From the NCBI RefSeq assembly GCF_027923905.1, contig NZ_AP026966.1, forward strand, positions 3,101,001 to 3,165,000: a stretch of DNA of 64,000 bases, read 5' to 3'. Positions 5,947-44,177 of the stretch are shown here, one piece after another. Made by a program: the position numbers and the translations under genes. Within the stretch, counting starts at the first letter, position 1, and each line of letters opens with the position of its first letter. The notes under the pieces are model-generated. The model did not search any database. It was given only the letters and a program-made list of their open reading frames with translations, and was not told the DNA's origin. The DNA comes from Massilia varians. GTDB taxonomy: Bacteria > Pseudomonadota > Gammaproteobacteria > Burkholderiales > Burkholderiaceae_D.

Positions 5947-8823
5947 GTGTTGAAAACCACCCTGTCGCGCAGCGTCCTCGCGACCCTCGTGCCGGCCGCA
6001 TTGCTGGCCTTCGCGCCGGCGGCCGGCGCCGCCCCGGCCGCGAAAGCCGCCACCGCGAAAGCGGCCGGCGCCGATGTCCTGCCCTTCAAGGCCGTCGAGA
6101 AAACCCTGCCCAACGGGCTCAAGGTGATCGTGGTACCGACCGGCTTCCCGAACCTGGTGTCGGTGCACATCCCGGTGCAGACCGGCTCGCGCAACGAAGT
6201 GGAACCGGGCAAGTCGGGTTTCGCCCACTTCTTCGAACACATGATGTTCCGCGGGACGCCCACGTATCCGCCTGAAAAGTACCAAGAGATCATCACCCGC
6301 GCCGGTGCGCGCCAGAACGCCTATACCAGCGACGACCTCACCAACTACTACACCACCTTCGCCAAGGAAGACCTGGACACGGTCCTGAAGGTCGAGGCCG
6401 ACCGCTTCCAGAACCTGGCCTATCCGGTCGAGGCCTTCAAGACCGAGTCGCGCGCCGTGCTTGGCGAGTACAACAAGAACAGCGCGAACCCGATGCAGAA
6501 GCTGTTCGAGACCCAGCGCGAAGCCGCGTTCTCGACCCACACCTACCGCCACACCACGATGGGCTTCCTGAAGGACATCGAGGACATGCCCAACCAGTAC
6601 GAGTACTCGAAGGTCTTCTTCGACCGCTGGTACCGTCCGGAGCGCACCACGGTCATCATCGCCGGCGACGTCGAGCCGGCCAAGGCGGTGGCGATGGTCG
6701 AGAAATACTGGGGCGGGTGGAAACGCGGCAGCTTCAAGTCGAACGTGCCGGTCGAGCCGGCGCCGCAAGGCGCGCAGTACCGCCACGTGGCGTGGCAGAC
6801 CCCGACCCTGCCGCTGGTGACGGTCGCCTTCCGGGCGCCGGCCTTCTCGGATACGCAGAAGGACCAGGCGGCGCTGTCGATGCTGCTGTCGTTGTCCTTC
6901 GGGCGCACCTCGCCGCTGTACAAGCGCCTGGTGCAGGACGAGCAGAAGGTCGACCAGCTGTTCGACTTCGTACCGAACCGGGTCGACCCGACCCTGGCCA
7001 CGATCGGCGCGCGCGTCAAGAAGCCGGGCGACGCGCTGTACGTGCGCGACGCCATCCTGCAGACCGTGGCGAAGCTGCGCGACGAACCGGTGACGGGCGC
7101 CGCGCTGGCCGATGCGAAGTCCGCCAACAAGTACGGCCTGATCCGCACGCTCGACAACACCGAGGCGATCGCCTCCACCCTGGCGTCCTACGTGCACTTC
7201 AACCGTTCCTACGACACCCTGAACCGCTACTACCGCGTGGTCGACAGCCTCACGCCGGCCGACCTGCAGGCGGCCGCCCGCAAGTACCTGGTGGACGAGT
7301 CGATGGTGGTGACCACCCTCTCGCACGAAGCGCTGCCGGAAGCGATCAAGAGCCTGCCCAAGCTGGCCAGTTTCGCGCCCAAGGCGGGCGAGGCCAGGTT
7401 CGACGTGCTGGTCCAGAAGTCGGCCCTGCCGCAGATCCGCTTCAAGCTGCTGTTCGCGGCCGGTTCCGCGCACGACCCCAAGGGCAAGGAAGGCCTGGCG
7501 GCCCTGACCGCGGCCATGGTGGCCTCGAGCGGCTCGCGCGAGCGCAAGATCGATGAAGTGACCAAGGCCCTGTTCCCGCTGGCCGGCAGTTTTTCCGAGC
7601 AGACCGACAAGGAAGTGACCACCTTCAGCGGCTCGACACACAAGGACAACTGGGACCAGTACCTCGGCATCGCACTGCCGCTGCTGGTCGATCCGGGCTT
7701 CCGTGAAGAAGATTTCCGCCGCCTGAAGGACGCCCAGAAGAATGCCTTGGTGCTCGACCTGAAGGACAACAACGAGGAGGAATTCGGCAAGGAGCGCCTG
7801 CAGGCGAACGTCTTCGCCGGCACCCCTTACGGCCATCCGGTGCTGGGCACGGTCAAGGGCATCGAATCGATCACCCTGGACGACGTCAAGAATTTCTATC
7901 GCCAGGCCTATACGCAGGGCGCGGTGCGGGTCGGCATCTCGGGCGACGTGTCGGACGCCATGGTCGCCTCGCTCAAGGGCGCGCTGGCGCGCCTGCCGGC
8001 AGCCGGCGGCCTGGCGCCGACCCCGGCCATCCGCGGCCGCATGCCGAACGGCCTGGACGTCGAGATCATCGAGAAGAACACCCGCGCCACCGCGATCTCC
8101 TTCGGCCTGCCGATCGAGGTGACCCGTTCGCATCCGGACTTCCCGGCCCTGTGGCTGGCCAAGACCTGGCTCGGAGAGCACCGTGCCTCGAGCGCCCGCC
8201 TGTACCAGCGCATCCGCGAGGAGCGCGGCATGAACTACGGCGACTATGCCTACATCGAAGCCTTCCCGCGCGGGATGTTCCAGTTCTTCCCGAACCCGAA
8301 CCTGGGCCGCAAGGCGCAGCTGTTCGAAGTCTGGATCCGCCCGGTGGCGCCGCAGAACGGCCACTTCGCCCTGCGCGCCGCGCTGTTCGAACTGGACAAG
8401 ATGATCCAGAACGGCCTGTCGCAGCAGGACTTCGAGACCACCCGTGGCTATCTTGAAAAGAACGTGTTCGTGATGACGGCCACCCAGGACCAGCAACTGG
8501 GCTATGCGCTCGACGCCCAGTGGTACCGCACGCCCGAATTCACCCGCATGATGCGCGATGGCCTGGCCAAACTGACGGTGGCGGACGTGAATGCCGCGAT
8601 CCGGAAGCACCTGTCGGCCAAGAACCTGTCGGTGGTGATCATCACCAAGGACGCGGCCGCGCTGAAAGACAGGCTGGTGAGCGATGCCTTCTCGCCGATC
8701 AGCTACGATGCAGAGAAGCCACAGGCGCTGCTGGACGAAGACCAGCGGATCGGATCGATGAAGCTGGGGATCAAGCCGGAGTCGGTACGGATCACGCCGG
8801 CGGCGCAGGCCTTTGCCGAGTGA
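5947..8823 (+). CDS. M16 family zinc metalloprotease (insulinase/pitrilysin-type, two tandem halves)
   Basis: 958 aa from GTG 5947 (AAGGAG five bases upstream; TTG 5950 is an alternative). The signal peptide ends near AGAAPA, so the enzyme is exported to the periplasm. The N-terminal M16 half carries the inverse zinc motif HFFEH at about 94-98 with the downstream glutamate region, so it is catalytic. The C-terminal half (from about 480) repeats the fold without HxxEH, as in fused alpha/beta pairs of processing peptidases. Such proteins degrade oligopeptides. A strong terminator follows at 8851. Confidence 0.93.
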   Translation: MLKTTLSRSVLATLVPAALLAFAPAAGAAPAAKAATAKAAGADVLPFKAVEKTLPNGLKVIVVPTGFPNLVSVHIPVQTGSRNEVEPGKSGFAHFFEHMMFRGTPTYPPEKYQEIITRAGARQNAYTSDDLTNYYTTFAKEDLDTVLKVEADRFQNLAYPVEAFKTESRAVLGEYNKNSANPMQKLFETQREAAFSTHTYRHTTMGFLKDIEDMPNQYEYSKVFFDRWYRPERTTVIIAGDVEPAKAVAMVEKYWGGWKRGSFKSNVPVEPAPQGAQYRHVAWQTPTLPLVTVAFRAPAFSDTQKDQAALSMLLSLSFGRTSPLYKRLVQDEQKVDQLFDFVPNRVDPTLATIGARVKKPGDALYVRDAILQTVAKLRDEPVTGAALADAKSANKYGLIRTLDNTEAIASTLASYVHFNRSYDTLNRYYRVVDSLTPADLQAAARKYLVDESMVVTTLSHEALPEAIKSLPKLASFAPKAGEARFDVLVQKSALPQIRFKLLFAAGSAHDPKGKEGLAALTAAMVASSGSRERKIDEVTKALFPLAGSFSEQTDKEVTTFSGSTHKDNWDQYLGIALPLLVDPGFREEDFRRLKDAQKNALVLDLKDNNEEEFGKERLQANVFAGTPYGHPVLGTVKGIESITLDDVKNFYRQAYTQGAVRVGISGDVSDAMVASLKGALARLPAAGGLAPTPAIRGRMPNGLDVEIIEKNTRATAISFGLPIEVTRSHPDFPALWLAKTWLGEHRASSARLYQRIREERGMNYGDYAYIEAFPRGMFQFFPNPNLGRKAQLFEVWIRPVAPQNGHFALRAALFELDKMIQNGLSQQDFETTRGYLEKNVFVMTATQDQQLGYALDAQWYRTPEFTRMMRDGLAKLTVADVNAAIRKHLSAKNLSVVIITKDAAALKDRLVSDAFSPISYDAEKPQALLDEDQRIGSMKLGIKPESVRITPAAQAFAE

Positions 8824-8904: not shown

Positions 8905-10512
8905 TCAGGAGCTGGCCCGATACCATCCGTGCCGCACCGCCGGCTTCATCTTCTCCCAGTTCGCCTGCCCGCCCTCGCGGGCCTCCCAGTCGGCGCGCAG
9001 CGCGCTCTCGACCTCGTCCCATCGGCGAGCGCGGTAGCGCTGCTCGCGCGCCATCGCCGCCCCGAAGCCATAGGCGGGACGGTAGTCGTCGTAGCTGCCG
9101 GCGTCCGCCGCGCTGCCGTAGGCGGCGTCCCAGTGTTTGCGGTAGCCGCGTTCCTCGTCATCGCCGGTGACGCGTTCCCAGCCGTGGCGCACCGCCGCCT
9201 TCAGCCGGTCCCAGGCGCCCGCCAGGGGTTTGCCGCCGCCGGCGCGCGCATGCCAGCCGCGCGCCAGCTCGCCCTCGACGTCGTCCCACGGGCGGTTCCG
9301 GTACAGCTCGCTCCTGCGCATCTCGGCGCCGAAGGTGTACGCCGGCTTGACCTTGTCGTAGTCCATCCCCGAGCCGCCCAGGTGGGTGTCGTAGTGGCTG
9401 CGGTAGTAGCTGTCGGCGTCGTGGTGCACCGTGATCCGGTCCCAGCCGCGGCGTACCGCTGCCTTTACCTTGTCCCAGGTGAGACCGGAGATGCCGGCGC
9501 CGAAGGCTTCCCAATTGCTGCGCAGTTCGTTCTCGACCTCATGCCAGGCACGCCCATGGTACTTGTCGTCGCGCGCCATATCGGCGCCATAGGCGTAGGC
9601 CGGCTTGACGCTTTCGTAGTCCGCGTCGCCATAGTTGGACAGGAAATGGTTGCGGTAGTAATCGTCGTCGTCGCCAAAGAAATTACTGCCGATGTCGAGG
9701 CCGCTGCCATGACCCGCGGGAGGCGGGGTTTCCGGCGAATAGATGCGCGAGCGGCCGCGCTGGGTCTCGGTAAGTCGCGCGCTCGGCGCGGGGGCGGCAC
9801 CGGGGCCAGATTCGCGCTGGCCCGCTTCGCCGCCGCCGGTTTCGATGTCCTCGAAGCTGGGAACGTGGACGGCGTTCTCGCGCAAGGTCGACCCGTGCAA
9901 GGAGGTGCTGCCGGTGGCGCCGAGGCCACTCTCTCCGAGCGGCTCCTGGTAAGTCCCTCCCGTCGGCACCGACTGGTACAGCGAATGCTGCTGGAAGATC
10001 ATGCCGTCGCCCGGGTTGTCGAGATGCGGCCTGCCTGCCGCCCGCGGCTGCGCCGGCTGCGCCGAAGCCTGCTGCATGCTGGCGGCCCCGCCCATGCGCA
10101 TCGATTCGGGCGGACGGCCCGTGTCGTTTGCCATGGCGCCGGCCTGCGCTTCCCCGTCGTCGATGTCGGAGGGGCCGAAGCGCTCGACGATGTCGGCGGC
10201 GTGCTCGGCCTCCGGCAGCGAAGCGGCGGCCACCACCAGGACGTGGTGGCCGCGGGTGACCGCGCCGGTGTAGCGGCTGGCACGCAGGCTGTTGTCGGCG
10301 CCGAACAGGTCGGTAAAGACGCGCCGCAGGTTGGCGCCGTTACCGCCGCTTGCTGCGCCGCCGCCGGCGCCGCCGGTGCTGTCGGTCATGCCGGTCGGAT
10401 CGGCATTGGAAAGCGTGAGCGTCTCGCGCGCGAAACCCGCGGAAATCAGCGCGTTCATCGCACTCTGTGCATCGGCCCGGTTACCGAACACAGCTACAAG
10501 AGTATGTTGCAT
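8905..10512 (-). CDS. GSP17M-like stress protein with three C-terminal aromatic repeats (paralog A)
   Basis: 535 aa from the ATG at 10512, preceded by GGGGAGGAACGACC. Residues 1-110 form a GSP17M/YflT-like domain (MQHTLVAVFGNRADAQ, then VTRGHHVLVV and AADIVERFGP). A low-complexity Gly/Ser/Gln linker (110-275) ends with TETQRGRSRIYSP. The C-terminus has three repeats at about 280-361, 362-449 and 450-535, each with the pattern YYRxHF, PAYxYGxxM, RxWxEVExxL and WxxxKxAVRxGW. The protein is soluble, with no signal peptide. It is the left-most of three leftward paralogs and is transcribed alone (terminator at 10634-10669 upstream). The role is unknown; the N-terminal family is linked to general stress. 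Repeat 2 of paralog B has no counterpart here. Confidence 0.85.
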   Translation of the reverse strand: MQHTLVAVFGNRADAQSAMNALISAGFARETLTLSNADPTGMTDSTGGAGGGAASGGNGANLRRVFTDLFGADNSLRASRYTGAVTRGHHVLVVAAASLPEAEHAADIVERFGPSDIDDGEAQAGAMANDTGRPPESMRMGGAASMQQASAQPAQPRAAGRPHLDNPGDGMIFQQHSLYQSVPTGGTYQEPLGESGLGATGSTSLHGSTLRENAVHVPSFEDIETGGGEAGQRESGPGAAPAPSARLTETQRGRSRIYSPETPPPAGHGSGLDIGSNFFGDDDDYYRNHFLSNYGDADYESVKPAYAYGADMARDDKYHGRAWHEVENELRSNWEAFGAGISGLTWDKVKAAVRRGWDRITVHHDADSYYRSHYDTHLGGSGMDYDKVKPAYTFGAEMRRSELYRNRPWDDVEGELARGWHARAGGGKPLAGAWDRLKAAVRHGWERVTGDDEERGYRKHWDAAYGSAADAGSYDDYRPAYGFGAAMAREQRYRARRWDEVESALRADWEAREGGQANWEKMKPAVRHGWYRASS

Positions 10513-10633
10513 GGTCGTTCCTCCCCATCGGTAAGTCCCGGGGCGCGCCAATCCTGGCTGCCGAACCGACCGGCCCGTCCCGCATCGGCGCATGGCCGTT
10601 GCATCGAACAGCCTACTCCAATACCGGGCCACC

Positions 10634-10669
10634 GAAAAGAAAAACCCCCCAGGGCGTTACCCTGGGGGG
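10634..10669 (-). terminator. rho-independent terminator after stress paralog B
   Basis: A 10-bp perfect stem (CCCCCCAGGG and its complement, five-base loop) followed on the minus strand by TTTTTCTTTTC. It lies about 60 bp past the stop of paralog B and shows that A and B are separate transcripts. Confidence 0.9.
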
Positions 10670-10727
10670 CGTGAATGGCTTGCGGCGTGCCTGGATAGCT
10701 GGCAGGCCGCCCTGGCACGGAATGCGA

Positions 10728-12785
10728 TCAGGAGGTCATCCGATCCCAGCCGTGGCGCACCGCCGACTTCATCTTTTCCCAGGTCGACTGGCCGCCGCTG
10801 CCGTAGCGGGTATCCCAGTCGGTGCGCAGCTCGTTTTCGACTTCGCCCCACTGGCGGCCGCGGTACTTCGGATCGCGGGCCATCGACGAGCCATAGGCGT
10901 AGGCCGGCTTGTAGTCGTCATAGCTGCCGGCGTCGCTGGAGGTGCTGTAGGTGGCGTTCCAGTGGCTGCGGTATTCGCGCTCGTTGTCGTCGTCATCCGT
11001 CATGCGGTCCCAACCGTGCCGGACCGCCGCCTTCATGCTTTCCCATGCGCCGCCCACGCCGGTGCCGGCCGCGGCGGTCGAACCGGTGCCGCCGGAGATC
11101 CGGGAATCCCAGCCGCGCGCCAGGTCGCCCTCGATGTCGTCCCACGGGCGATTCCGATACAGCTCGCTCCTGCGCATTTCGGAGCCGTAGGCATAGGCGG
11201 GCTTGACGCTGTCGTAATCCATGCCCGAGCTGCCCAGGGTGCGGTCGTAGTGGCTGCGGTAATAGCTGTCGTCGTCCTTGTCGAGGGTCATGCGGTCCCA
11301 GCCTCGGCGCACCGCCGCCTTCATCTTTTCCCAGGTCGAACCGGCGGCGCTGCCGCTACGGGTATCCCAGTCGCTGTGCAGGTCGCTTTCCACCTCGTCC
11401 CAGCGGCGGCCGCGGTACTTGTCGCTGCGTGCGCTTTCGGCGCCATAGCTGTAGGCCGGGGCGTAGTCGTCATACGAGCCGCCCGCCGTGCCGTAGGTGT
11501 TGCTGAAGTGGCTGCGGTAGATGGTGTCGTCGTCATCGTTCGTCATGCGGTCCCAGCCGCGGCGCACGGCCGCCTTCATACGGTCCCAGGTGTCGCCCGC
11601 GCTGGCGCCGCTGCGGGTGCTCCAGTCGCTGCGCAGGTCGTTCTCGACCTCGTCCCACTTGCGGCCGCGGTACTTGTCGCTGCGCGCCATCTCGGAGCCG
11701 TAGGCGTAGGCCGGCTTGATGCGCTCGTAGTCCTCGCCGTTGTAGTTGGCCAGGAAGTGGTTGCGGTAGTAATCGTCATCGTCGCCGAAGAAGCTGCTGC
11801 CGATGTCCAGGCCGCTGCCGGTCGCCGCCGCGCCGGTTCCCGGCGAGTAGATGCGCGAGCGGCCGCGCTGGGTCTCGGTGAAGCGGCTGCTGCCCGCGGA
11901 CGAGCCCATCGCGCCATCGCGCTGCATCGAGCCGGCGCTGCCCTGCATCGCCGATCCTTCCAGCGAGGAGCCCTGCAGGGTGCCGCCCTGGCCGCCCGAG
12001 CTGCGGATCGACATGTCGTTCTGCGTGCCTTCCAGGGACGAGGCCTGCACCGCGTTTTCCTGCAGGGTCGAACCCTGGAGCGAGGTGCCGCCGGTCGCGC
12101 TCAGGCCGCTCTGGCCCATCGGTTCCTGGTAGGTGGTGCCCATCGGCTCGGCCTGGTGCAGCGACTGCTGCTGGAACAGCTTGCGGTCGCCCGGGTTGTC
12201 GAGCTGCTGGCTGGCGCCCGTGGCTGCGCCGAGGCCCGCGGCGGTGCCGAGGCTGCCGTTGCCGGCCGTCGTGCCGGCGCTCATGCCAGCGCCGGACTGG
12301 GCCGACATCGGCGCGGATTGCTGCACGCCGCCGGCGCCGCTCATGCGCATCGACTCCGGCATGCCGCTGCCCGCGCCCATCGCACCGGCGCCGGATGCCT
12401 GTTCGTCGATGTCGGTCGGACCGTAGCGCTCGACGATGTCGGCGGCGCGCTCCACTTCCGGCAGGGATTGGGCACGCACGGTGAGCACGTGGTGGCCACG
12501 GGTGACCGCGCCCTCGTACCGGCTGGCATGTTCGTTGTTGTCGGCGCCGAACAGGTCGGTGAAAAAGTGCTTGATGGAAGCGCCGATACCGATGCCGGTA
12601 CCGTCGGCCAGGGTGTCGCTGGTGCCGCTGGCGGCGCTGCTGCCAGTGACGCTGTCGGTCATCCCGGTCGGATCGGCATTGCTCAGCTTGACCTCATCAC
12701 GCGAGAAGCCCGAGGACATCAGCTCGTCTATCGCATTCTGTGCGTCGGTCCGGTTGTCGAACACGGCTACAAGAGTATGTTGCAT
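10728..12785 (-). CDS. GSP17M-like stress protein with four C-terminal aromatic repeats (paralog B)
   Basis: 685 aa. The ATG at 12785 is preferred over ATG 12791 because GGGAGGA lies six bases upstream and the leader matches paralog A. Order: GSP17M-like domain (1-115), a long Ser/Gly/Gln linker with degenerate SLQGSTLQENAV-like pentads (about 190-290), then four repeats at about 332-414, 415-499, 500-595 and 596-685. Each repeat ends AVRxGWDRMT. Repeats 1, 3 and 4 correspond one-to-one with those of paralog A; repeat 2 is extra. The repeats are rich in Asp, Arg, Tyr and Trp and have no Cys. Predicted cytosolic and highly hydrophilic, like desiccation or heat-shock proteins. Function of the repeat is unknown. 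Confidence 0.85.
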   Translation of the reverse strand: MQHTLVAVFDNRTDAQNAIDELMSSGFSRDEVKLSNADPTGMTDSVTGSSAASGTSDTLADGTGIGIGASIKHFFTDLFGADNNEHASRYEGAVTRGHHVLTVRAQSLPEVERAADIVERYGPTDIDEQASGAGAMGAGSGMPESMRMSGAGGVQQSAPMSAQSGAGMSAGTTAGNGSLGTAAGLGAATGASQQLDNPGDRKLFQQQSLHQAEPMGTTYQEPMGQSGLSATGGTSLQGSTLQENAVQASSLEGTQNDMSIRSSGGQGGTLQGSSLEGSAMQGSAGSMQRDGAMGSSAGSSRFTETQRGRSRIYSPGTGAAATGSGLDIGSSFFGDDDDYYRNHFLANYNGEDYERIKPAYAYGSEMARSDKYRGRKWDEVENDLRSDWSTRSGASAGDTWDRMKAAVRRGWDRMTNDDDDTIYRSHFSNTYGTAGGSYDDYAPAYSYGAESARSDKYRGRRWDEVESDLHSDWDTRSGSAAGSTWEKMKAAVRRGWDRMTLDKDDDSYYRSHYDRTLGSSGMDYDSVKPAYAYGSEMRRSELYRNRPWDDIEGDLARGWDSRISGGTGSTAAAGTGVGGAWESMKAAVRHGWDRMTDDDDNEREYRSHWNATYSTSSDAGSYDDYKPAYAYGSSMARDPKYRGRQWGEVENELRTDWDTRYGSGGQSTWEKMKSAVRHGWDRMTS

Positions 12786-12971
12786 GGTCATTCCTCCCTT
12801 AAAGTGAGTGACGGGGGTGGCCGCCGAACGGTCCGGCCCCGGACCGCTCGCGTGAGCGGGACAAGGTCGCGACAGCTCGCGCGCCAGCCCGCCGCGCGCA
12901 AATGCACCGGACCAGATTACCGCAAACCCGGCCGTACCCGCGCGCGCCTGACCGGACAGTAGGGAGGATGG

Positions 12972-12994
12972 AAAACGGCGCCCGCAGGCGCCGT
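12972..12994 (-). terminator. rho-independent terminator after stress paralog C
   Basis: An 8-bp stem (ACGGCGCC and its complement) with a four-base loop, followed by TTTT on the minus strand, about 20 bp beyond the stop of paralog C. Confidence 0.75.
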
Positions 12995-13015
12995 CCGTCA
13001 CGCCGGGACGCGGAC

Positions 13016-14227
13016 TCAGTAGCTTCGGGTGGTGCCGGTATCGCCGGTCATGCGATCCCAGCCGTGGCGCACCGCGGCCTTCATTTTTTCCCAGGTCGAG
13101 GGGCCGCCGCTGTAGCGCGATTCCCAGTCGGTGCGCAGGTCGGATTCGACCTCGTCCCACTGGCGTCCGGTGTAGCGGCCGCTGCTGGCCATCTGCGAAC
13201 CGTAGCTGTAGGCCGGCGCGTAGTCGTCATACGATGCCCCGGTGGCGCCGTAGGTGCTGGTGAAGTGGTTGCGGAAATAGCTGTCGTCGTCGCGCAGGTC
13301 GGAGCGCGCGGTGGTGTCGTCCAGGCGCTGCACGTCCACCTCGGTATGGCGCACGGTGTCGTGGATCTGCTGCTGGCGTTCGTCCACCTGCTTGCCGACC
13401 GTAACTTCCTCGACGATGCGGGCCGATTTCTCGACCACGGCTTCCTCGGCGGTCTCGCGCATCTCGATGGTCTGCTCCTTGAACGCGGTCGCGTCGCTCG
13501 GGCTGATCGGCTGGTCGACGGCGCGGCGCTGGACATCGACGTGCTCTTCGCGCAGGCCGACGGTCTGGTCGACCGGGGTCTCGACCACGCGCGAATAGAT
13601 GCGCACGCCGCCGCGCTGGACTTCGCGCTTGCCGACCTTGAGCTGTTCTTCGACCACCGGAATCGTTTGGGTGGTGCCGCTGCGGCCGGTTTCCATCGCG
13701 GTGTCGCGCTGCAGCGAGGCGCCCGACAGCTTGCCTTGCTGCTGGGCGCTGCCCGATTGCGCCGACGCCGAGTAGGTCTGCATGCCGCTCTGGCTGCCCT
13801 GCAGCATGGCGCCGCTGGCGCCCATCCTGCCGACGTTGTCGGAGTGTTCGTCGATGTCGATCGGGCCGAAGCGCTCGACGATGTCGGCGGCGCGTTCAAC
13901 TTCCGGCAGCGAATCGGCGCTCAGGGTGATCACGCACTTGCCGCCGGAGACGGCGCCTTCGTAGCTGCTCAGGCGCCGGGTGTCGTCTTCGTCACTGCCA
14001 AACAGGTCGCTGAAGAAATGCTTGATGCTGCTGCCGATGCCGGTGTCGGCCGACGTGGTCGTGGTGGTGGAGCTGGCGGTGGAAGTCGCGCTCCCGGTCA
14101 GCCCGGTCGTGCCGGTGTCTCCCGACATGCGCACGTCGGAGCGCGGAAAGCCCGACGCGAGCAGCTCGTCCATCGCGCTGCGCGCGTCGGCGTTGTTGTC
14201 GAAAACGGCTACCAAAGTATGTTGCAT
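13016..14227 (-). CDS. GSP17M-like / DUF2382 stress protein with one aromatic repeat (paralog C)
   Basis: 403 aa from the ATG at 14227, whose leader resembles those of paralogs A and B (GGAGGAACGATC). Residues 1-115 are the same GSP17M-like domain. Residues about 187-299 are a DUF2382 (YsnF/AvaK) domain beginning IPVVEEQLKVGKREV. Residues about 310-394 are a single copy of the aromatic repeat, ending AVRHGWDRMT. It therefore joins the two stress domains that are encoded separately nearby. It lies 13 bp downstream of the stand-alone DUF2382 gene and is probably cotranscribed with it. Cytosolic; biochemical role unknown. Confidence 0.87.
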   Translation of the reverse strand: MQHTLVAVFDNNADARSAMDELLASGFPRSDVRMSGDTGTTGLTGSATSTASSTTTTTSADTGIGSSIKHFFSDLFGSDEDDTRRLSSYEGAVSGGKCVITLSADSLPEVERAADIVERFGPIDIDEHSDNVGRMGASGAMLQGSQSGMQTYSASAQSGSAQQQGKLSGASLQRDTAMETGRSGTTQTIPVVEEQLKVGKREVQRGGVRIYSRVVETPVDQTVGLREEHVDVQRRAVDQPISPSDATAFKEQTIEMRETAEEAVVEKSARIVEEVTVGKQVDERQQQIHDTVRHTEVDVQRLDDTTARSDLRDDDSYFRNHFTSTYGATGASYDDYAPAYSYGSQMASSGRYTGRQWDEVESDLRTDWESRYSGGPSTWEKMKAAVRHGWDRMTGDTGTTRSY

Positions 14228-14240
14228 GATCGTTCCTCCA

Positions 14241-14678
14241 TCATTGGTGGGTATCGGATGCGGGTGGCGAACCGGCCTCGTCGAAGCGCTCGACCTCGAC
14301 CCGCTCCGCTTTGAGCGCAACGGTGTCGCGGTAGTGCTCCTCGTGCCGCACGCGGGTGATGTGCAGTTCTTCCTTGATGCGCAGGCGGCGTTCGACCACC
14401 AGCACCTCTTCGAGAACCGGCACCACCAGCGTGTCGCCTTCATAGCGGCTTGCAGGTGCTTCTTCCAGCGCGACGATCCGGTCCACGGGAACATGCCGGA
14501 CGTCCACCTCCTCGCGCACCAGGCGCTCGTCGATGGTGACCGGATGTTCCGCAACCGTCTTGTGCACACGCACGCCGCGGCCGGTCTCGACGACGCGCGT
14601 GCCGACCGCCAACTGCTCCTCGATCACGGGTATGCGCAGGCCTTCCTGCTGCTTGTTCTCGGGGATATTGCTCGACAT
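14241..14678 (-). CDS. DUF2382 (YsnF/AvaK) domain protein
   Basis: 145 aa, almost entirely DUF2382: IPVIEEQLAVG at 15-25 and a second related half starting VVPVLEEVLVVERR. The fold is a beta-rich repeat found in stress proteins and often fused to PRC-barrel or GSP17M domains. The ATG at 14678 has GAGGAG eight bases upstream. First gene of a two-gene operon with paralog C, which carries the same domain, suggesting a joint role. No membrane or signal segment. Confidence 0.88.
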   Translation of the reverse strand: MSSNIPENKQQEGLRIPVIEEQLAVGTRVVETGRGVRVHKTVAEHPVTIDERLVREEVDVRHVPVDRIVALEEAPASRYEGDTLVVPVLEEVLVVERRLRIKEELHITRVRHEEHYRDTVALKAERVEVERFDEAGSPPASDTHQ

Positions 14679-36225: not shown

Positions 36226-38091
36226 ATGAAGACCCGTACCTACCTGTACCTGATGGCGGCCGCCATCCTGATCCCGGTCGCCCTGGCGTTCTGGATTGGC
36301 GTGTCCATGCTGCTCGACTGGGAGCGCGAATCGCGCATCCAGCGGGTGCAGGAGACGGCGCGTTCCACCGCCCTGCTGGTGGACCGGGAAATCGCCGTCA
36401 AGGAAGCGCTGCTGCGGCTCATCGCCAATTCCGAGGCGCTCGAAGAAGGCAATTACGCACGCGTATACCGGCTCGCCAGCCGCCTGAACAGCGACGATCG
36501 CCTGTCTTGGACGACGCTGGTGAACGAGCGCTACCAGCCGACCTTCAATACCCTCATGCCCTACGGCACTGAACTGAAGGGGGCGACACGGCACTATGTC
36601 GACGAGGTGCTGCGCACCGGGAAAACACGGGTGTCCGGCTATTTCTTCGGGCCGACGTCTAAGCGGGCGGTGGTCTCGGTGGACCTTGCCTCGCCGCCGG
36701 GCCGGGGGCCGCGCTACGTCGTCAGCCAGATCTTCGACGCCCGCTACTTCGAGCGGGTATTCGCGAGCAGCACCCTCGATCCCACCTGGCTGGTCGGCGT
36801 CTTCGACGCCAACGGCGTGACGATCGCGCGCAACCGCAACGGCGCCACGTCCGCCGGCAAGCCGATGCATCCCGAGATGCGCCTCGCCGCGCAGCACGCC
36901 GGCAGCGGCGTGCTGCGCCACGTGACCCATGAAGGCCTGGAGGTCTACGGCGTCTATACGCGCGCGGCGGCCAGCGGCTGGACGGTCGTGATCGGGGTGC
37001 CGGTTGCCGAGATCGAATCGGCCGCGCGCACCGCCGCCACCTATGCCACGCTGGCGCTGATCCTGCTGATGGGCCTGGCGCTCCTGACCGCCGTCTTCTT
37101 CGGCAACAAGCTCTCCAACGCCCTGCAACAGGCCGGCAGCGTCGCCAACGCCCTGGCGCGCGGCGCGGTCGCCCGCCCGCGGACGACCAAGGTGGACGAA
37201 GTCGACGCCCTGCTCGACGGCCTGCACTACACCAGCGAGGCGCTGGCGCGCGAAAGCGCGGCGCGCCAGGCGCTGCAGCACGAGCGCGAGCAGCTCCTGG
37301 TGAGCGAACAGCGCGCGCGCCGGGTAGCCGAGGCCCAGAGCCGGGCCAAGGACGGCTTCCTGGCCATGCTGGGACATGAGCTGCGCAATCCGCTGGCGGC
37401 GATCTCGGGGGCCATGAGCGTGCTCGACATGCCGGGCGTGAAACCGGAACTGGCGGCCAATGCGCGCGAGATCAGCCGGCGCCAGATGCGCCACCTGGTC
37501 CGCATCGTCGACGACCTGCTGGACGTCCAGCGCATCCTGTCGGGCAAGATCGTCCTGCAGCGCACGCCGGTCAACCTGACCGAGGTGCTGCGCTCCTGCG
37601 TCGAGGCCAAGCGCCTGGTCGACGCCGGCAACCATCATTGGCACGCCGAGCTGGCGCCCTGCTGGGTCGACGGCGACCGCACCCGCCTCGAGCAGATCGT
37701 CGACAACCTGCTGCACAACGCCATCAAGTACACCCCGGCAGGCGGCAGCATCACGGTGCGTTGCAAGACCAGCGGCCGGGAAGTCGTGGTGGAGGTCTGC
37801 GATACCGGCGTCGGCCTGGCGCCCGAGCTCCTGCCCCAGATCTTCGACGTGCTGGTGCAAGGCCCGACCAGCATCGACCGCGCCCAGGGCGGCCTCGGGC
37901 TCGGCCTGGCCCTGGTGAAGGAACTCAGCGCGCTGCATGGCGGCAAGGTTTCGGTAGACAGCGCAGGCCAGGGCCAGGGATGCACCTTCAGCCTGGTGCT
38001 GCCACTGCGCCAGGATCCGGCGCTCGGTGCAGCGGCCGCTAGGCAAGCGGATGGCGCGCAGGCGGCGCGTCCCACACTCGACCCGGCCTGA
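36226..38091 (+). CDS. membrane sensor histidine kinase with periplasmic Cache-like domain
   Basis: 621 aa. Helix 1 (about 8-28), a periplasmic dCACHE-like sensor (about 30-265, with DARYFERVFASSTLDPTWLVGVFDANG), helix 2 (about 270-295), a HAMP-like linker and coiled coil (300-385), HisKA with LGHELRNPLAA, and HATPase_c with DNLLHNAIKY and GLGLGLALVKE. No receiver domain and no adjacent response regulator, so it is an orphan kinase. It follows the anti-sigma gene by 81 bp. Confidence 0.9.
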   Translation: MKTRTYLYLMAAAILIPVALAFWIGVSMLLDWERESRIQRVQETARSTALLVDREIAVKEALLRLIANSEALEEGNYARVYRLASRLNSDDRLSWTTLVNERYQPTFNTLMPYGTELKGATRHYVDEVLRTGKTRVSGYFFGPTSKRAVVSVDLASPPGRGPRYVVSQIFDARYFERVFASSTLDPTWLVGVFDANGVTIARNRNGATSAGKPMHPEMRLAAQHAGSGVLRHVTHEGLEVYGVYTRAAASGWTVVIGVPVAEIESAARTAATYATLALILLMGLALLTAVFFGNKLSNALQQAGSVANALARGAVARPRTTKVDEVDALLDGLHYTSEALARESAARQALQHEREQLLVSEQRARRVAEAQSRAKDGFLAMLGHELRNPLAAISGAMSVLDMPGVKPELAANAREISRRQMRHLVRIVDDLLDVQRILSGKIVLQRTPVNLTEVLRSCVEAKRLVDAGNHHWHAELAPCWVDGDRTRLEQIVDNLLHNAIKYTPAGGSITVRCKTSGREVVVEVCDTGVGLAPELLPQIFDVLVQGPTSIDRAQGGLGLGLALVKELSALHGGKVSVDSAGQGQGCTFSLVLPLRQDPALGAAAARQADGAQAARPTLDPA

Positions 38092-38155
38092 GCCTGTAAA
38101 TCAGGGGCTTCGCCCATACGTGTTCATTGTCGACCGCTTCATGGACCGTGCCGTC

Positions 38156-38707
38156 ATGCGAATTTTTCTCCGCAGCCTGCTGCTGGCCCTTGTTCTGCTT
38201 GCCGTCTGGGGCCTGCTCGAGCCCTGGGTGCGCCATGCCGCGTATGCGATGCGCCCGGCCGCGATGCCGGCGCCAAGCGTGCTCGCCATGCCGGTGAGCG
38301 GCGTGCGGCCGAAGGCGCTGCGCGACACCTGGCATGCCAGCCGCAGCGAGGGCCGCAGGCACGAGGGCATCGACATTTTCGCCAGGCGCGGCACTTCGGT
38401 GCGGGCCGCCACCGAAGGCATCGTGCTGCGGGTCGGGACCAACCGCCTCGGCGGGCAGGTGGTGTGGGTGCTGGGGCCCGGCGGCCAGCGTCACTACTAC
38501 GCCCACCTCGACGGCTACGCGGACGTGGCGCCGGGCATGCGCGTGGAGGAAGGTCGGGTGCTGGGCTACGTCGGCAATACCGGGAACGCGCGCGGCACGC
38601 CCCCACACCTGCATTACGGGGTCTACGACAAGACCGGGCCGGTCAATCCCTATCCGCTGCTGCGCGGTGGCGCGCCGGCCCGGACGGCGCAGGCCGGCCA
38701 GCCTTAA
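38156..38707 (+). CDS. M23 family peptidase (LytM domain)
   Basis: 183 aa from ATG 38156 (ATG 38141 is an alternative; neither has a clear SD). An uncleaved or cleaved N-terminal hydrophobic helix (SLLLALVLLAVWGLL) is followed by a LytM domain with HEGIDIF and HLHYG, the zinc ligands of active M23 endopeptidases that cut peptidoglycan cross-links. Its stop overlaps the stop of the convergent PBP1A gene (TTAA), so two peptidoglycan enzymes face each other. Confidence 0.88.
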   Translation: MRIFLRSLLLALVLLAVWGLLEPWVRHAAYAMRPAAMPAPSVLAMPVSGVRPKALRDTWHASRSEGRRHEGIDIFARRGTSVRAATEGIVLRVGTNRLGGQVVWVLGPGGQRHYYAHLDGYADVAPGMRVEEGRVLGYVGNTGNARGTPPHLHYGVYDKTGPVNPYPLLRGGAPARTAQAGQP

Positions 38708-41235
38708 ATAATTTCCTCCTCGCCCGAGCTGGGCGGCGGGGGCGGCACGTCCGGCAGCTGGCTGGGGGGCGGCGCGGTCTGTAGCGGCGCCGGCTGCACC
38801 GGCACCGGCTGGATCGGCGCGGCCGGCTCGTCCTCGTCCTCGATCGGGGCCGGGTCGGGCACCTCCGCGCCCTCCATTCCTTCTTCGATTTCGAGTTCGC
38901 CCGGGCCTTCCTCGACGTATTCCGGTTCCTGGTGGCGGCGCGGCGGCGGGGTGCGCCCGCCCGGCAGCAGTGCGTTGGGGTCGAGCTTGCCGCTGTCGTA
39001 GGCGCTGCGCATGAAGTCGCCCACCAGCAGCAGCGCATTGTGGCCGCCCTGCCCCCAGTAACTGCTGCGCATCGTCACACGGTTGTCGTTGAAGCCGACC
39101 CAGGCGCCGGCCACCAGGTTCGGGTGCATCAGGATGAACCAGCCGTCGGTATTGTTCTGGGTCGTGCCGGTCTTGCCGGCCAGGTCGCCCTGCACGCCGA
39201 AGCGGTAGCGCACGCCGCCGCCGGTGCCGCGGTCGACCACGCCGCGCAGCATGTCGATCAGGCTCAGGGCGGCGTCCTGCGACAGGGCGCGCTCGGGCGC
39301 ATCCGGCGCGAAATCGGCAATGGTCTTGCCGTCGCGGTCGGTGATGCGGCGCACGAACACCGGCTTGCGGTATTCGCCCTGGGCGGCGATGGTGCTGTAG
39401 GTGCTGACCATCTCGAGCAGGGTCACCGGGCTGGTGCCCAGCGCCAGCGAGGGCACGGCCGACAGCTTGCTCTGGCGGATGCCCATGCCCTGCGCCAGGC
39501 GCACGACCGGGCTGACGCCGACCTGCTGCATCACCTGCGCGGTGATGGTGTTCTTGGAGTAGACCAGGCCGTCGCGCATGCTCATCATGGCGCCGCTGTT
39601 GCCCGACATGTCGGTCGGGCGCCAGACCGTGCCGCCCACGCGGATGTCCTGCACCACGTCGCGGTAGGTCTGGTCCGGCGGAATGCCGCTCTCGAGCGCG
39701 GCGGCGTAGACGATCGGCTTGAAGGTCGAGCCGGGCTGGCGCGCGGCCTGGGCCACGTGGTCGAACTGGTCGCGCTCGAAGCTGCGGCTGCCGACCCAGG
39801 CGCGCACTTCGCCGGTGTGCGGGTCCATCGCCACGAAGCCGGCCTCCAGGCGCGACTTGGTGGCCTTCAGTTCGCGCATGAAGGCGCGGTCGCCCTTCAG
39901 GCGCTTGAGCGCGGCGGCCGGCGCTTCGCCATCCTCGACGGCCTGGCGGTATTCGCCGCTCTCGCGTACGAACGCGTCGAGCTCGCGCCCGTGCGAACGC
40001 CAGTACCAGGCAAAGGGATCGACTTCGCCGCGCATCGAGGTGTACATGCCGGCCGAGGTCGAACGCGGCATGCCCTGGTAGGCCCACTCGACGTCGGCGA
40101 TCGCCTGCAGCGTGTTGGCCTGGCGCTCGACCGCGCGCACGGCGGCCGCCTGCAGGTCCATGTCGAGCGTGGTGTGCACCACCAGGCCGTCGAGCTGCAG
40201 GTCGTAGTCGTTGTCCTGGGCCCAGTCGAGCAGCCACTTGCGCACGTAGGCGGTGAAGTGGTCGTCCTTGCCGCTGCGGTCGTTCAGGCGCGCGAAACGC
40301 ACCCGCAACGGCCGCTTGGAAAGAAGCCGGTAGCGCTCTTCGGAAAACGCCCCATGCTTGGCCATCTGCGACAGCACCACGTTGCGGCGCGACCTGGAGC
40401 GCTCCGGATTGGCCACCGGGTTGTAGTAATGGGTGCCCTTGAGCATGCCGACCAGGGTGGCCGCTTCCAGCACGTCCAGTTTGGCGGCCGTCTTGCCGAA
40501 ATAGGTGCGCGCCGCCATCTCGATGCCGTAGGCGTTGTACAGGAAGGGCACGGTGTTCAGGTAGGCCTCGAGGATCTCGGTCTTGCTGTAGGTGTTCTCG
40601 ATCTTGATCGCGGTGATCAGTTCCTTCATCTTGCGGTTGATGCTGCGCGCCCGGCCGATCTCTTCCGGGAACATGTTGCGCGCCAGCTGCTGGGTGATGG
40701 TCGAGCCGCCTTGCGGGTCGCCCTTCACCGTGGCCACGAAAGCGCCGGCCACGCGCCGGAAATCGACGCCGTGGTGGTCGTAGAAGCGGTGGTCTTCGGT
40801 CGAGATCAGGGCCTTGATCACGTGCGGCGAGATCTGCGACAGCTTGACGCGCTCCTGCAGGCCCTTCTCGAAGCTGCCAAGCTCCTTGCCGTCGCTGGAC
40901 AGGATCACGCTCGGACGCGCGGTGCTGGCCTGGCGCAGGTCGTCGATGCCCGGCGTGAGCGGGATCAGGATCACCAGGTAGAGAAAGAAGGCGGTCAGGC
41001 CGGCGGCCAAGCTCCACAGTCCGATCAGGAGCGCCTGCTCCCAGCGCGGGCGGTCGCGCAGGCGCGCCTGCGCCATCGAATAGCCCGCCCGGGCGCGTCC
41101 GCGCGCGCCCTCGAACAGGCGCTTGCCATGCTGGCCGAGCGCGGCGCGGTGCGCGCCGCCAGGGGTGCCGGGGTTGTCCTGTCCGGTCTTGTCGTCGGCG
41201 CCGGCGCGGGTGCCGCTTCTTTCTTCCTGATCCAC
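38704..41235 (-). CDS. mrcA: class A penicillin-binding protein (PBP1A-type)
   Basis: 843 aa from GTG 41235, chosen for AAGGA eight bases upstream. A cytosolic N-terminus and one membrane helix (about 68-92: LIGLWSLAAGLTAFFLYLVI) precede a GT51 transglycosylase (STEDHRFYDHHGVD with catalytic Glu; GGSTITQQLARN) and a transpeptidase with PGSTFKP, YSKNTIT and KTGTTQ. The C-terminal tail is long, acidic and Pro-rich. It polymerises and cross-links peptidoglycan at the inner membrane. The gene symbol follows family usage; the gene stands apart from the usual pil/comM neighbours. Confidence 0.92.
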   Translation of the reverse strand: MDQEERSGTRAGADDKTGQDNPGTPGGAHRAALGQHGKRLFEGARGRARAGYSMAQARLRDRPRWEQALLIGLWSLAAGLTAFFLYLVILIPLTPGIDDLRQASTARPSVILSSDGKELGSFEKGLQERVKLSQISPHVIKALISTEDHRFYDHHGVDFRRVAGAFVATVKGDPQGGSTITQQLARNMFPEEIGRARSINRKMKELITAIKIENTYSKTEILEAYLNTVPFLYNAYGIEMAARTYFGKTAAKLDVLEAATLVGMLKGTHYYNPVANPERSRSRRNVVLSQMAKHGAFSEERYRLLSKRPLRVRFARLNDRSGKDDHFTAYVRKWLLDWAQDNDYDLQLDGLVVHTTLDMDLQAAAVRAVERQANTLQAIADVEWAYQGMPRSTSAGMYTSMRGEVDPFAWYWRSHGRELDAFVRESGEYRQAVEDGEAPAAALKRLKGDRAFMRELKATKSRLEAGFVAMDPHTGEVRAWVGSRSFERDQFDHVAQAARQPGSTFKPIVYAAALESGIPPDQTYRDVVQDIRVGGTVWRPTDMSGNSGAMMSMRDGLVYSKNTITAQVMQQVGVSPVVRLAQGMGIRQSKLSAVPSLALGTSPVTLLEMVSTYSTIAAQGEYRKPVFVRRITDRDGKTIADFAPDAPERALSQDAALSLIDMLRGVVDRGTGGGVRYRFGVQGDLAGKTGTTQNNTDGWFILMHPNLVAGAWVGFNDNRVTMRSSYWGQGGHNALLLVGDFMRSAYDSGKLDPNALLPGGRTPPPRRHQEPEYVEEGPGELEIEEGMEGAEVPDPAPIEDEDEPAAPIQPVPVQPAPLQTAPPPSQLPDVPPPPPSSGEEEII

Positions 41236-41366
41236 TATAGAAATCCTTGCTGCGATTGCCGTTGAAGCGCACGGTGCCGTGCGCGTTGCGTATGCGACAA
41301 GTATAGCTGACCGGCGCGACAACCCCGGTCCGGCTCGCCAGCGATCGCGTCAGCCCTGGGCGTGCC

Positions 41367-44177
41367 TCAGGCATCGACCGGGCTGGGCTCCACCCTTCCC
41401 TTGCGCAGCAGTGCTTCGACCGTTTGCACCGGCTCCGGGCGGCCATAGATGTGGCCCTGCACCTCGTCGCAGCCGTAGGCGCGCAGGGAGTCGAGCTGCT
41501 CGATGGTTTCGACGCCCTCGGCGATGACCTGCATGCGCAGTCCATGGGCGAGCGAAATGATGGCGTCCACCATGGCGGCGCCGTCCGGGCTGACCATGTC
41601 GCGCACGAAGGAACGGTCGATCTTGAGCACGTCGACCGGAAAGCGCTTCAGGTAAGCCAGGCTCGAGTAGCCGGTGCCGAAATCGTCGATCGACAGCTTC
41701 ACGCCCATGGCTTTCAGGCAGCGCATGGTCTCGATCGCCGTTTCGACGTCGGCCATCATCATGCTCTCGGTGAGCTCGATCTCGAGGGAGTCGGCTCTCA
41801 AGCCAGTCTCGTCGAGCACCGTGCGCACGGTCTGCACCAGGTCGGGCTCGGAGAATTGGCGCGCCGACAGGTTGACGCCGATCCGGAGGTTGCCGAGGCC
41901 GGCACGCTGCCAGTCGCGGTTCTGGCGGCAGGCCGCGCGCAGGGCCCAGGCGCCGATCGGCACGATCAGGCCGGTTTCCTCGGCCAGCGCGATGAAGCGC
42001 TCGGGCCGCACGGTGCCGAAATGCGGATGGCGCCAGCGGATCAGGGCCTCGGTGCCGACCACGCATCCGCTGCCGAGCTCCACCTGGGGCTGGAAATAGA
42101 GCTCGAACTGGTCCTCGCGCAAGGCGCTGCGCAGCGCGCCTTCCAGGGCCAAGCGGTCGATGGCATGCGCATTCATGTGCGGGGCGTAGAACTGCACCGC
42201 GTTGCGGCCGGTCTGCTTGGCGCGGTACATGGCCACCTCGGCATGCTTGACCAGGGTTTCCGGATCGAGGCCGTCGGCCGGATAGCCGGCCACCCCGGCG
42301 CTGGAGCCGAACACCAGGGTGTGGCCGTCGACCTCGAGCGGCTCTGCGAGGGCCTCGCGCACCGCCTGCAGCCGGGCCGCGGCCTGGCGCTCGTCGCGGC
42401 AATCGGTCAGGACCAGCATGAAATCGTCGCCTCCCGAACGCGCCGCCGTATCGGCCTGGCGGATGGCGCCGGCAATCCGCGCGGCAAGGGCGCGCAGCGC
42501 TTCGTCGCCGAGGCGCCGCCCGAGCGTGTCGTTGACCAGCTTGAAATGGTCGATGTCGAGCGCCACGGTCCACACCGGCATGCCGTTGGCGGTGGCAATG
42601 GCGCGCTCGATGCGGTCGGCCAGCAGCGCGCGGTTGGCCAGGCCGGTGAGCGTATCGTAGCGCGCGCGGTGCGCCAGTTCGGCCTCGTAGCGTTTGGCCA
42701 TCGTCACGTCATAGGTGGTGACCACGAAGTGTTCGGTCTTGCCGCCCGCGTCCTTGACCGGGGCGATGTAGACCTCGCTGAGCAGCTCGCGGCCGTCGCG
42801 CGCGGCCTGGCGCACCAGTGCGTGTCCCTTGCGGCACGCATGCAGGGCCTGGCGCAGCTCTTCCAGCCCGGGATCGTCGACGTCCTGGCGCGTCAGGCTG
42901 GCCAGCGGTTTACCCACCAGTTCGCCCGGCCCGTAGCCGAGCGTACGCTCGCACGCCGGGTTGGCGTAGTCGATCGGGTAGCCGTGGCGCGTCGCGCTGA
43001 CCAGCAGGATCGGATTGGCGGCGGCCTCGATCGCGCGCTGGTGCAGGCGCAGGGCGCCGGCGGCGATCGCCAGGTCGGCGGTACGACGCTCGACCAGGGC
43101 TTCGATGCGCCGGGTGCGCGCGCTGCGCTGCTGCACCAGGACCGCGGCGGCCAGGCTCAGGACGCAGCCATAGCCGAGGATCGACAGCGAACCCACCTGG
43201 GTGTCGAGGCCGCGCGCCTTGCGCACCGCCGTCAGCTCCCAGCGGGTGCCGGCGACAGAGAAGGCGTGCGTGAGCGTGCTCGGCCCGCCGCCGAGCCAGC
43301 GCTCCCAGGCTTCCTGCGGGAGCGGCGCGCCCGGGTCGCTGAACACGGCCACCCGGGCGCCGCGGGCGGTATGGCCATACAGCGTGAGCGCCGCGTCGCC
43401 GTCGGACAGCAGGTGCCCCCCATGCAGGCTGCCGCCGACCAGCACGCCGGTGTCGATCACCACCGCCGTGACGCCGAGGGCCGCCGCGCGCCGCGCCGCC
43501 ATGCCGGCCAGGTCCGCACCGGCGCGGTAGACCGGCATCGCCACGATCATGCCGCGCAGCGAACCGTCGCCCTGCACCAGGCGCAGCACCGGGCTGGCGG
43601 TGACTTGACCGGAATCGATCGCGCGCTCGACGGTGGCGCGCTCGACGGGATGGGACAGGACGTCGTAGCCGAACACACCGTCGTTGCTGGCGATCGGCAC
43701 CACGTAATCGTTGACGAGGTAACGCTCGCGCTGCTGCGCGGGCCGCAGTTGGCCGGTGGAACTACGCTCGGTGATGGTGAAACCGGGCCAGAAGCGGCGC
43801 CGCGCCGCTTCGAAGGCGGGACGCTCGGCCCGGCTGACGAAGCGCTGGTACTCGAGGGCGCGCAGGTAGCTGTCCCCGGCCGCGAGCGGCTGGGCGAAGG
43901 CATCGAAGGCGTCGCGCGAGACCTGTCCGCCGCCGGCCGTGAACAGCAGGTTCAGCGCGCGCATGTCGTGCACGGCATCGGCGAAGGCGCGCGTGACCGC
44001 CGCCGTGCGCACGGCGGTGCGCTGCTCGAAATCGGCGCGCGCACTCTCCTGCTCCAGGCCGCGCGCCACGCCGAACAGCGTCGCCGTCAACGCGAACCCG
44101 GCCAGGAGGGTCGCCACGGCAGCGCGCGACAGGAGGCGCCGCCGCTGTAACAGCGGATAGGCGAGCAGCCGATTCAT
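41367..44177 (-). CDS. CHASE-PAS-GGDEF-EAL c-di-GMP signalling protein
   Basis: 936 aa. Membrane helix 1 (about 15-35), a periplasmic CHASE-type domain (about 60-300), helix 2 (about 325-345), PAS (about 375-490), GGDEF (about 500-665) and EAL (about 675-930). The GGDEF motif reads SGGDDF, with Asp where the Glu normally stands, so cyclase activity is doubtful. The EAL domain has TEALIRW, DDFGTGYSSL and the expected metal ligands, so it is probably a phosphodiesterase. Divergent from a MarR regulator; 130 bp upstream of it lies PBP1A in the same direction. Confidence 0.9.
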   Translation of the reverse strand: MNRLLAYPLLQRRRLLSRAAVATLLAGFALTATLFGVARGLEQESARADFEQRTAVRTAAVTRAFADAVHDMRALNLLFTAGGGQVSRDAFDAFAQPLAAGDSYLRALEYQRFVSRAERPAFEAARRRFWPGFTITERSSTGQLRPAQQRERYLVNDYVVPIASNDGVFGYDVLSHPVERATVERAIDSGQVTASPVLRLVQGDGSLRGMIVAMPVYRAGADLAGMAARRAAALGVTAVVIDTGVLVGGSLHGGHLLSDGDAALTLYGHTARGARVAVFSDPGAPLPQEAWERWLGGGPSTLTHAFSVAGTRWELTAVRKARGLDTQVGSLSILGYGCVLSLAAAVLVQQRSARTRRIEALVERRTADLAIAAGALRLHQRAIEAAANPILLVSATRHGYPIDYANPACERTLGYGPGELVGKPLASLTRQDVDDPGLEELRQALHACRKGHALVRQAARDGRELLSEVYIAPVKDAGGKTEHFVVTTYDVTMAKRYEAELAHRARYDTLTGLANRALLADRIERAIATANGMPVWTVALDIDHFKLVNDTLGRRLGDEALRALAARIAGAIRQADTAARSGGDDFMLVLTDCRDERQAAARLQAVREALAEPLEVDGHTLVFGSSAGVAGYPADGLDPETLVKHAEVAMYRAKQTGRNAVQFYAPHMNAHAIDRLALEGALRSALREDQFELYFQPQVELGSGCVVGTEALIRWRHPHFGTVRPERFIALAEETGLIVPIGAWALRAACRQNRDWQRAGLGNLRIGVNLSARQFSEPDLVQTVRTVLDETGLRADSLEIELTESMMMADVETAIETMRCLKAMGVKLSIDDFGTGYSSLAYLKRFPVDVLKIDRSFVRDMVSPDGAAMVDAIISLAHGLRMQVIAEGVETIEQLDSLRAYGCDEVQGHIYGRPEPVQTVEALLRKGRVEPSPVDA

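Follow-up and report, generated by a model that had tools for sequence, protein, structure and literature searches.

An unnamed and widespread repeat domain, expanded in tandem in Massilia, in candidate general-stress proteins

We analysed a 64,000-nucleotide stretch of the Massilia varians genome (contig NZ_AP026966.1, positions 3,101,001 to 3,165,000 of the forward strand; this whole stretch is called the window) in which three neighbouring genes, here named A, B and C, encode proteins that end in copies of a repeat unit. By sequence comparison, this unit is a real, unnamed and widespread domain that has expanded in tandem in one genus. The unit, the architectures in which it occurs, its spread, the selection acting on it and its number per gene were read from sequence or calculated. 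The domain, which has no Pfam model, occurs in several phyla and connects stress proteins of four poorly understood kinds (YflT-like, DUF2382, glycine-zipper and DUF2383), which thereby have one common part that can be tested.

Genes A, B and C, together with a fourth gene, D, all lie on the minus strand and are read leftward in the order D, C, B, A (Table 1). As a preliminary description of this DNA had pointed out, A, B and C are adjacent paralogs that share the start MQHTLVAVF (GGAGGAA precedes each of them) and carry three, four and one unit, respectively. The same description gave the unit about 85 residues and four motifs in a fixed order. The alignment of all eight units does contain 21 invariant columns, but the length ranges from 80 to 96 residues and the motifs vary (PAYTFG in A2, an end of RHGWYRAS in A3). 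Likewise, the composition that had been described as free of cysteine is so in A, in B and in the eight units, but C has one cysteine, located within its YflT part.

When compared with known families, the N-terminal parts of A, B and C matched YflT (general stress protein 17M, PF11181, 99 positions) in order and position, whereas this model includes neither the linker nor the units. Only B passed the gathering score; C and A fell short of it, so the GSP17M-like start previously ascribed to all three proteins holds at the Pfam cut-off for B alone. DUF2382 (YsnF/AvaK; PF09557, TIGR02271; cut-off 23 bits) matched over its full length in C and D, which makes these two proteins members of the family, as had been recognised from the sequence. 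In contrast, A and B had no DUF2382 match, and the unit of C follows DUF2382, outside its model. D stands alone before C, with a gap of 13 bases to the start of C.

The fold of the unit and the disorder of the linker were predicted. A model of the single unit C1 consisted of four helices (predicted local distance difference test (pLDDT) 82.3, predicted template modelling score (pTM) 0.68), and the same helices recurred in every unit of the full-length model of B, whose linker had a pLDDT <50. On the predicted helices, the conserved aromatic positions are close to the hydrophobic side (5–53 degrees between the faces), which is what a folded core would lead one to expect. As modelled, the unit is probably a small folded four-helix domain. 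Across 58 diverse unit rows, F, W and Y made up 12–19.5% of the residues (mean 16.2%) and the charge averaged −2.5 (range −8 to +3), that is, the units are mostly slightly acidic.

Neither the eight units of the window nor the 58 rows matched a Pfam or NCBIfam model at its cut-off. The best NCBIfam match among the 58 rows was that of the L028 unit, from a Gemmatimonadota metagenome-assembled genome (MAG), to sll1863_fam (NF052504, E = 0.00022), which at 21.4 bits, the best of 10 proteins, missed the cut-off of 35; four of the 58 rows matched this model up to E = 1. Matches of B unit 1 to DUF6842 (0.019), COX4 (0.042) and PagP (E 1.4–1.5) were all below the cut-offs and were rejected. No credible match to the unit was found in the PDB by sequence or by fold: Foldseek with the full B model returned nothing at E ≤ 0.001 (best 2.3), and nothing at E ≤ 0.001 was found among viral models either. 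The nucleoporin NSP1, matched by the unit profile in the PDB (E 2.8e-5 and 0.0018), was discarded, as the score summed short PAxxxG-like pieces in its phenylalanine–glycine (FG) repeats and no single stretch passed alone. Profile searches with the units thus matched no characterised domain with a known function, and a description of the unit was absent from the titles and abstract openings of the open-licence PMC papers listed by searches on these stress families.

In PHROGs one cluster matched, phrog_18476 (209 positions, unknown function), which covers the glycine-zipper form. Its last ~80 positions correspond to the unit (28 of 51 unit rows at E ≤ 0.01, best 6.1e-12), and glycine-zipper forms match it over its full length (L028, 3.6e-26). 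In contrast, C of the window matches it weakly (0.0068), and the cluster has no name, no function and no repeats; it was matched in 19 of 100 genomes, in many of them over the glycine-zipper part only. With its glycine-zipper form present in phrog_18476, the unit has been seen before and merely lacks a name: 'undescribed', as it was first called, is right for Pfam and NCBIfam but goes too far for PHROGs.

The units also align outside this genome. Within Massilia, 61 of 62 genomes carried them, with 1–10 matches each. In even draws from the phylum and from the class, at least 12 of 398 and at least 10 of 369 genomes matched, respectively, this genome included; 13–14 candidates were scored per genome, and both counts are therefore lower bounds. 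A tblastn search with a single unit returned 22 plasmid records, including 14 from Acinetobacter and, from cyanobacteria, three from Pseudanabaena and one from Synechococcus. Altogether the unit was found in other Massilia, further Pseudomonadota, Cyanobacteria and the one Gemmatimonadota MAG. It stands by itself or is fused to segments of the YflT-like, DUF2382, glycine-zipper or DUF2383 kind (the last in L039, 8.2e-40). Local models and regular expressions sorted 96 distinct open reading frames (ORFs) with a unit, some of them cut by locus ends, into 33 with a YflT-like segment, 31 with YflT-like and DUF2382 segments, two with DUF2382 only, 14 with a glycine zipper and 16 with none of these.

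A DUF2382 gene stands directly before a YflT–DUF2382–unit gene in 11 of the 28 named loci. The D–C type of pair also occurs in G618 and G753, which belong to two other families of the class, and the fused YflT–DUF2382–unit architecture in G480, which makes three genomes in two other families. Judged by gene order and sequence, this arrangement is widespread, and B and A seem to derive from it, having more units but no DUF2382. Massilia is not alone in having the B-type layout, since L036 and L037 (family f5) have a YflT-like start, assigned by eye, and one unit without DUF2382. At L012 a 120-residue unit-only ORF (5980–6339) occupies the place where relatives hold a full C gene, and C may be broken there. 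The M. varians genome has a second unit gene, with its unit at G000:C1:5456070-5456294 (L058; L139 6032–7540). This ORF of 502 residues combines one unit with glycine-zipper segments and a start that looks YflT-like by eye.

The units are under purifying selection and the linker drifts. Between B and its L001 counterpart, the ratio of nonsynonymous to synonymous substitution rates (dN/dS) was 0.05–0.15 in the units and 0.11 in the head but reached 0.31 in the linker, and against L002–L004 it was 0.13–0.37 in the units (the value for unit 2 of L004 comes from a partial alignment) and 0.39–0.46 in the linker. The number of units varies from one to five per gene in 28 related loci, in line with the earlier proposal that this is a modular family in which units come and go. 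That the three units of A match units 1, 3 and 4 of B in order was also borne out: A1 is 64% identical to B1, A2 70% to B3 and A3 60% to B4, and a tree of 112 units, built from few columns and with good support for 48 of its 108 inner branches, has position-specific clades in which the same units pair and B2 stands with B1 (97/80).

Unit 2, which had been said to be either gained in B or lost in A, is also missing from the three-unit B genes of L004 and L008. In five four-unit genes, 18 columns separate units 1 and 2, 12 of them in the front and six in the rear. In the first units of L004, L008, A and L001 A, 10–12 of the front columns are of type 1, whereas the six rear columns mostly follow type 2; the last four of these rear columns sit in the border to unit 3, where type 2 is expected in any case. 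The front of unit 2 is like that of other units and the front of unit 1 is derived, so that copying unit 1 into unit 2 would need many reversals. These reversals, together with the mosaics of units 1 and 2, favour the loss of unit 2 by recombination between the two units. The balance thus leans to a loss on A's line rather than a gain in B, although unit 2 may instead have come in from a C-type gene. A also seems to lose its end, as L001 A stops after two units and A3 in this genome is on a long branch. Because orthologues within one genus differ by natural gain and loss of units, an effect of copy number on stress survival could be tested with native variants.

We tentatively read A, B and C as protective general-stress proteins built as folded beads on a flexible string, a reading that we consider plausible but somewhat short of an even chance, and in which we infer stress induction, protection and the bead mechanism. 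A YflT-like head and a long linker rich in Gly, Ser, Thr and Gln would present one to five slightly acidic four-helix modules. Upon water loss or heat, these beads would surround or weakly tether proteins, complexes or the membrane and would prevent them from collapsing on each other, and the number of beads would set reach and valency.

A stress role, which had been suggested from the outset, is supported indirectly by the family names and by the gene company in some relatives. One Acinetobacter plasmid has a stand-alone unit gene flanked by a gene for a haem-oxygenase-like iron enzyme (PF14518, 2.4e-25) and by a catalase gene; in A. baumannii, dried cells are protected by KatE and by DtpC, an enzyme of that haem-oxygenase-like kind (PMC13232832). 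The Synechococcus glycine-zipper form has genes for a GlsB/YeaQ stress membrane protein and for a hemerythrin nearby, and a GlsB/YeaQ-type gene also adjoins the second unit gene of the M. varians genome and that gene's relative in G294. A 53-residue peptide rich in Q, K and D, hydrophilin-like by eye, is encoded 5' of the stand-alone unit gene on the Acinetobacter plasmid (L061, 3726–3887).

Several observations weigh against protective beads. The link between the plasmid enzyme and DtpC is one of enzyme kind. In the wider survey of 16 distant loci (20 loci minus L149, L155, L162 and L163, in which the gene caller missed the unit gene), the 124 neighbour proteins showed no broad stress enrichment: there were two DUF2382 proteins and two GlsB/YeaQ proteins, with both GlsB/YeaQ loci belonging to a single genus, and the list was headed by response regulators (6) and kinases. 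The list for the control loci shows 25 of 166 families, so that an absence of GlsB/YeaQ from the controls cannot be read from it, and control locus L169 itself has a unit gene beyond the genes that entered the comparison. The units of A are less constrained (dN/dS 0.23 and 0.42 against L001 A). The full-length model of B was poor overall (pLDDT 57.6, pTM 0.28), so that any arrangement of the beads read from it would be tentative. Finally, the grand average of hydropathy (GRAVY) of the whole proteins (A −0.77, B −0.90, C −0.71) misses the limit for hydrophilins.

Hydrophilins have >6% Gly and a mean hydrophilicity >1, here taken as GRAVY < −1. The Gly content of A, B and C (12.9, 13.1 and 9.2%, respectively) is above this limit, and that of D is 4.1%; the units alone have a GRAVY of −1.1 in A, −1.33 in B and −1.17 in C. 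Like hydrophilins and the Acinetobacter proteins DtpA and DtpB (compared by description), A, B and C are Gly-rich and hydrophilic and would act in a stress setting. In contrast to them, A, B and C have predicted folded beads, and their whole-protein hydrophilicity rules out membership among the hydrophilins. Elsewhere in the window, the sole ORF of 47 greedily called with GRAVY < −1 and Gly >6% (38042–41545, minus strand) may be a shadow ORF.

Other roles of the unit were weighed as well. It could, with low probability, be a membrane- or envelope-facing helical module whose amphipathic helices dock on lipid or membrane proteins in stress and whose repeats raise avidity. We also doubt that it is an oligomerisation or signalling domain, binding YflT or DUF2382 partners and not itself protective. 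The DUF2382 gene beside the YflT–DUF2382–unit gene, in the 11 of 28 loci and in two other families, suggests a partnership, and the conserved polar residues E45, K67 and R76 could form contacts, but none of the proteins seen has a catalytic or sensor domain fused to it, and the number of units varies freely among close relatives, which is unusual for a defined signalling interface. The hydration- or nucleic-acid-binding repeat of the preliminary description appears quite unlikely: the units are indeed hydrophilic and rich in aromatic residues, with Arg in the last helix, but their mean charge is negative and their conserved aromatics are close to the hydrophobic face, where a folded core would have them. 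A tandem repeat of a divergent domain of the CsbD or sll1863 type is very improbable. The last helix (W..hK..h...W..hT) does resemble sll1863_fam and, through a W-K-W motif, CsbD/YjbJ (PF05532; NF007748, 0.0022), but this is a match of a single helix. The sll1863_fam match misses its cut-off, and hhalign covered 24 of 53 CsbD positions at a probability of 16.5% with no match for the unit's other three helices, so that CsbD was rejected as the parent family at the level of the whole domain. Pfam searches of the window's proteins and units gave no PF05532 row, and CsbD genes are present elsewhere in this genome, separate from the unit genes. The motif W..hK..h...W..h is common to the last helix of the unit, CsbD (loci L059, L060, L116–L138) and sll1863-type proteins (NF052504), possibly as a convergent use of this helix in stress proteins.

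If the folded beads of A, B and C do protect, they would represent a folded alternative to disordered protectants. It would be a bold extension, and one we regard as rather unlikely, that a new and widespread fold family starts with this unit, one whose folded four-helix protective beads are attached to several kinds of stress protein and whose number in tandem adjusts how well cells survive drying or heat, as a folded counterpart to the disordered hydrophilins and late embryogenesis abundant (LEA) proteins. If the beads do not protect, naming the domain would still improve the annotation of many hypothetical proteins. The module is a good target for the study of cell survival in drying or heat.

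Table 1. Features of the locus, with positions in the window
Feature	Position	Strand	Basis
Gene D, stand-alone DUF2382 protein, 145 aa	14241..14678	-	PF09557 9.7e-14, 52.1 bits (cut-off 23)
Gene C, YflT-like start + DUF2382 + one unit, 403 aa	13016..14227	-	
C YflT-like stretch, residues 5-87	13967..14215	-	Pfam 21.3 bits, below cut-off 26.2
C DUF2382, residues 189-299	13331..13663	-	PF09557 1.5e-24, 86.9 bits
Unit C1	13019..13279	-	unit alignment; structure model
TTGCGGTAATCT box 5' of B, similar in aligned B relatives	12914..12925	-	alignment
Gene B, YflT-like start + linker + four units, 685 aa	10728..12785	-	structure model
B YflT domain, residues 5-95	12501..12773	-	Pfam 26.4 bits, cut-off 26.2
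B linker rich in Gly/Ser/Thr/Gln, residues 126-334, predicted disordered	11784..12410	-	pLDDT <50 at 126-307 and 309-334
Unit B1	11523..11771	-	unit alignment
Unit B2, no counterpart in A	11265..11522	-	identities, tree, column comparison
Unit B3	10977..11264	-	unit alignment
Unit B4	10731..10976	-	unit alignment
Terminator-like hairpin 3' of B, 12 pairs then T run	10644..10670	-	sequence
Gene A, YflT-like start + linker + three units, 535 aa	8905..10512	-	
A YflT-like stretch, residues 5-70	10303..10500	-	Pfam 17 bits, below cut-off 26.2
Unit A1, partner of B1	9409..9660	-	identities, tree
Unit A2, partner of B3	9148..9408	-	identities, tree
Unit A3, partner of B4, long branch in tree	8908..9147	-	identities, tree

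Because B is followed by the terminator-like hairpin, A is probably transcribed separately from B. The TTGCGGTAATCT box before B is a possible promoter part. This box (TTGnnGTAATCT) is kept in aligned B relatives and showed no genome-wide enrichment, and TTGNNGTAATCT was rejected as a regulon mark with four matches in the genome versus three for the reversed control. In the region, we found no sigma-70-like site and no Rfam family.

A phage origin of the unit was rejected: tblastn gave only four contigs filed as Acinetobacter phage MD-2021a, and two scans of viral contigs gave no confirmed relative. These four contigs with a unit (CAKLQH020000001, CAKLQF020000001 and two more) are up to 378 kb long and are probably host DNA.

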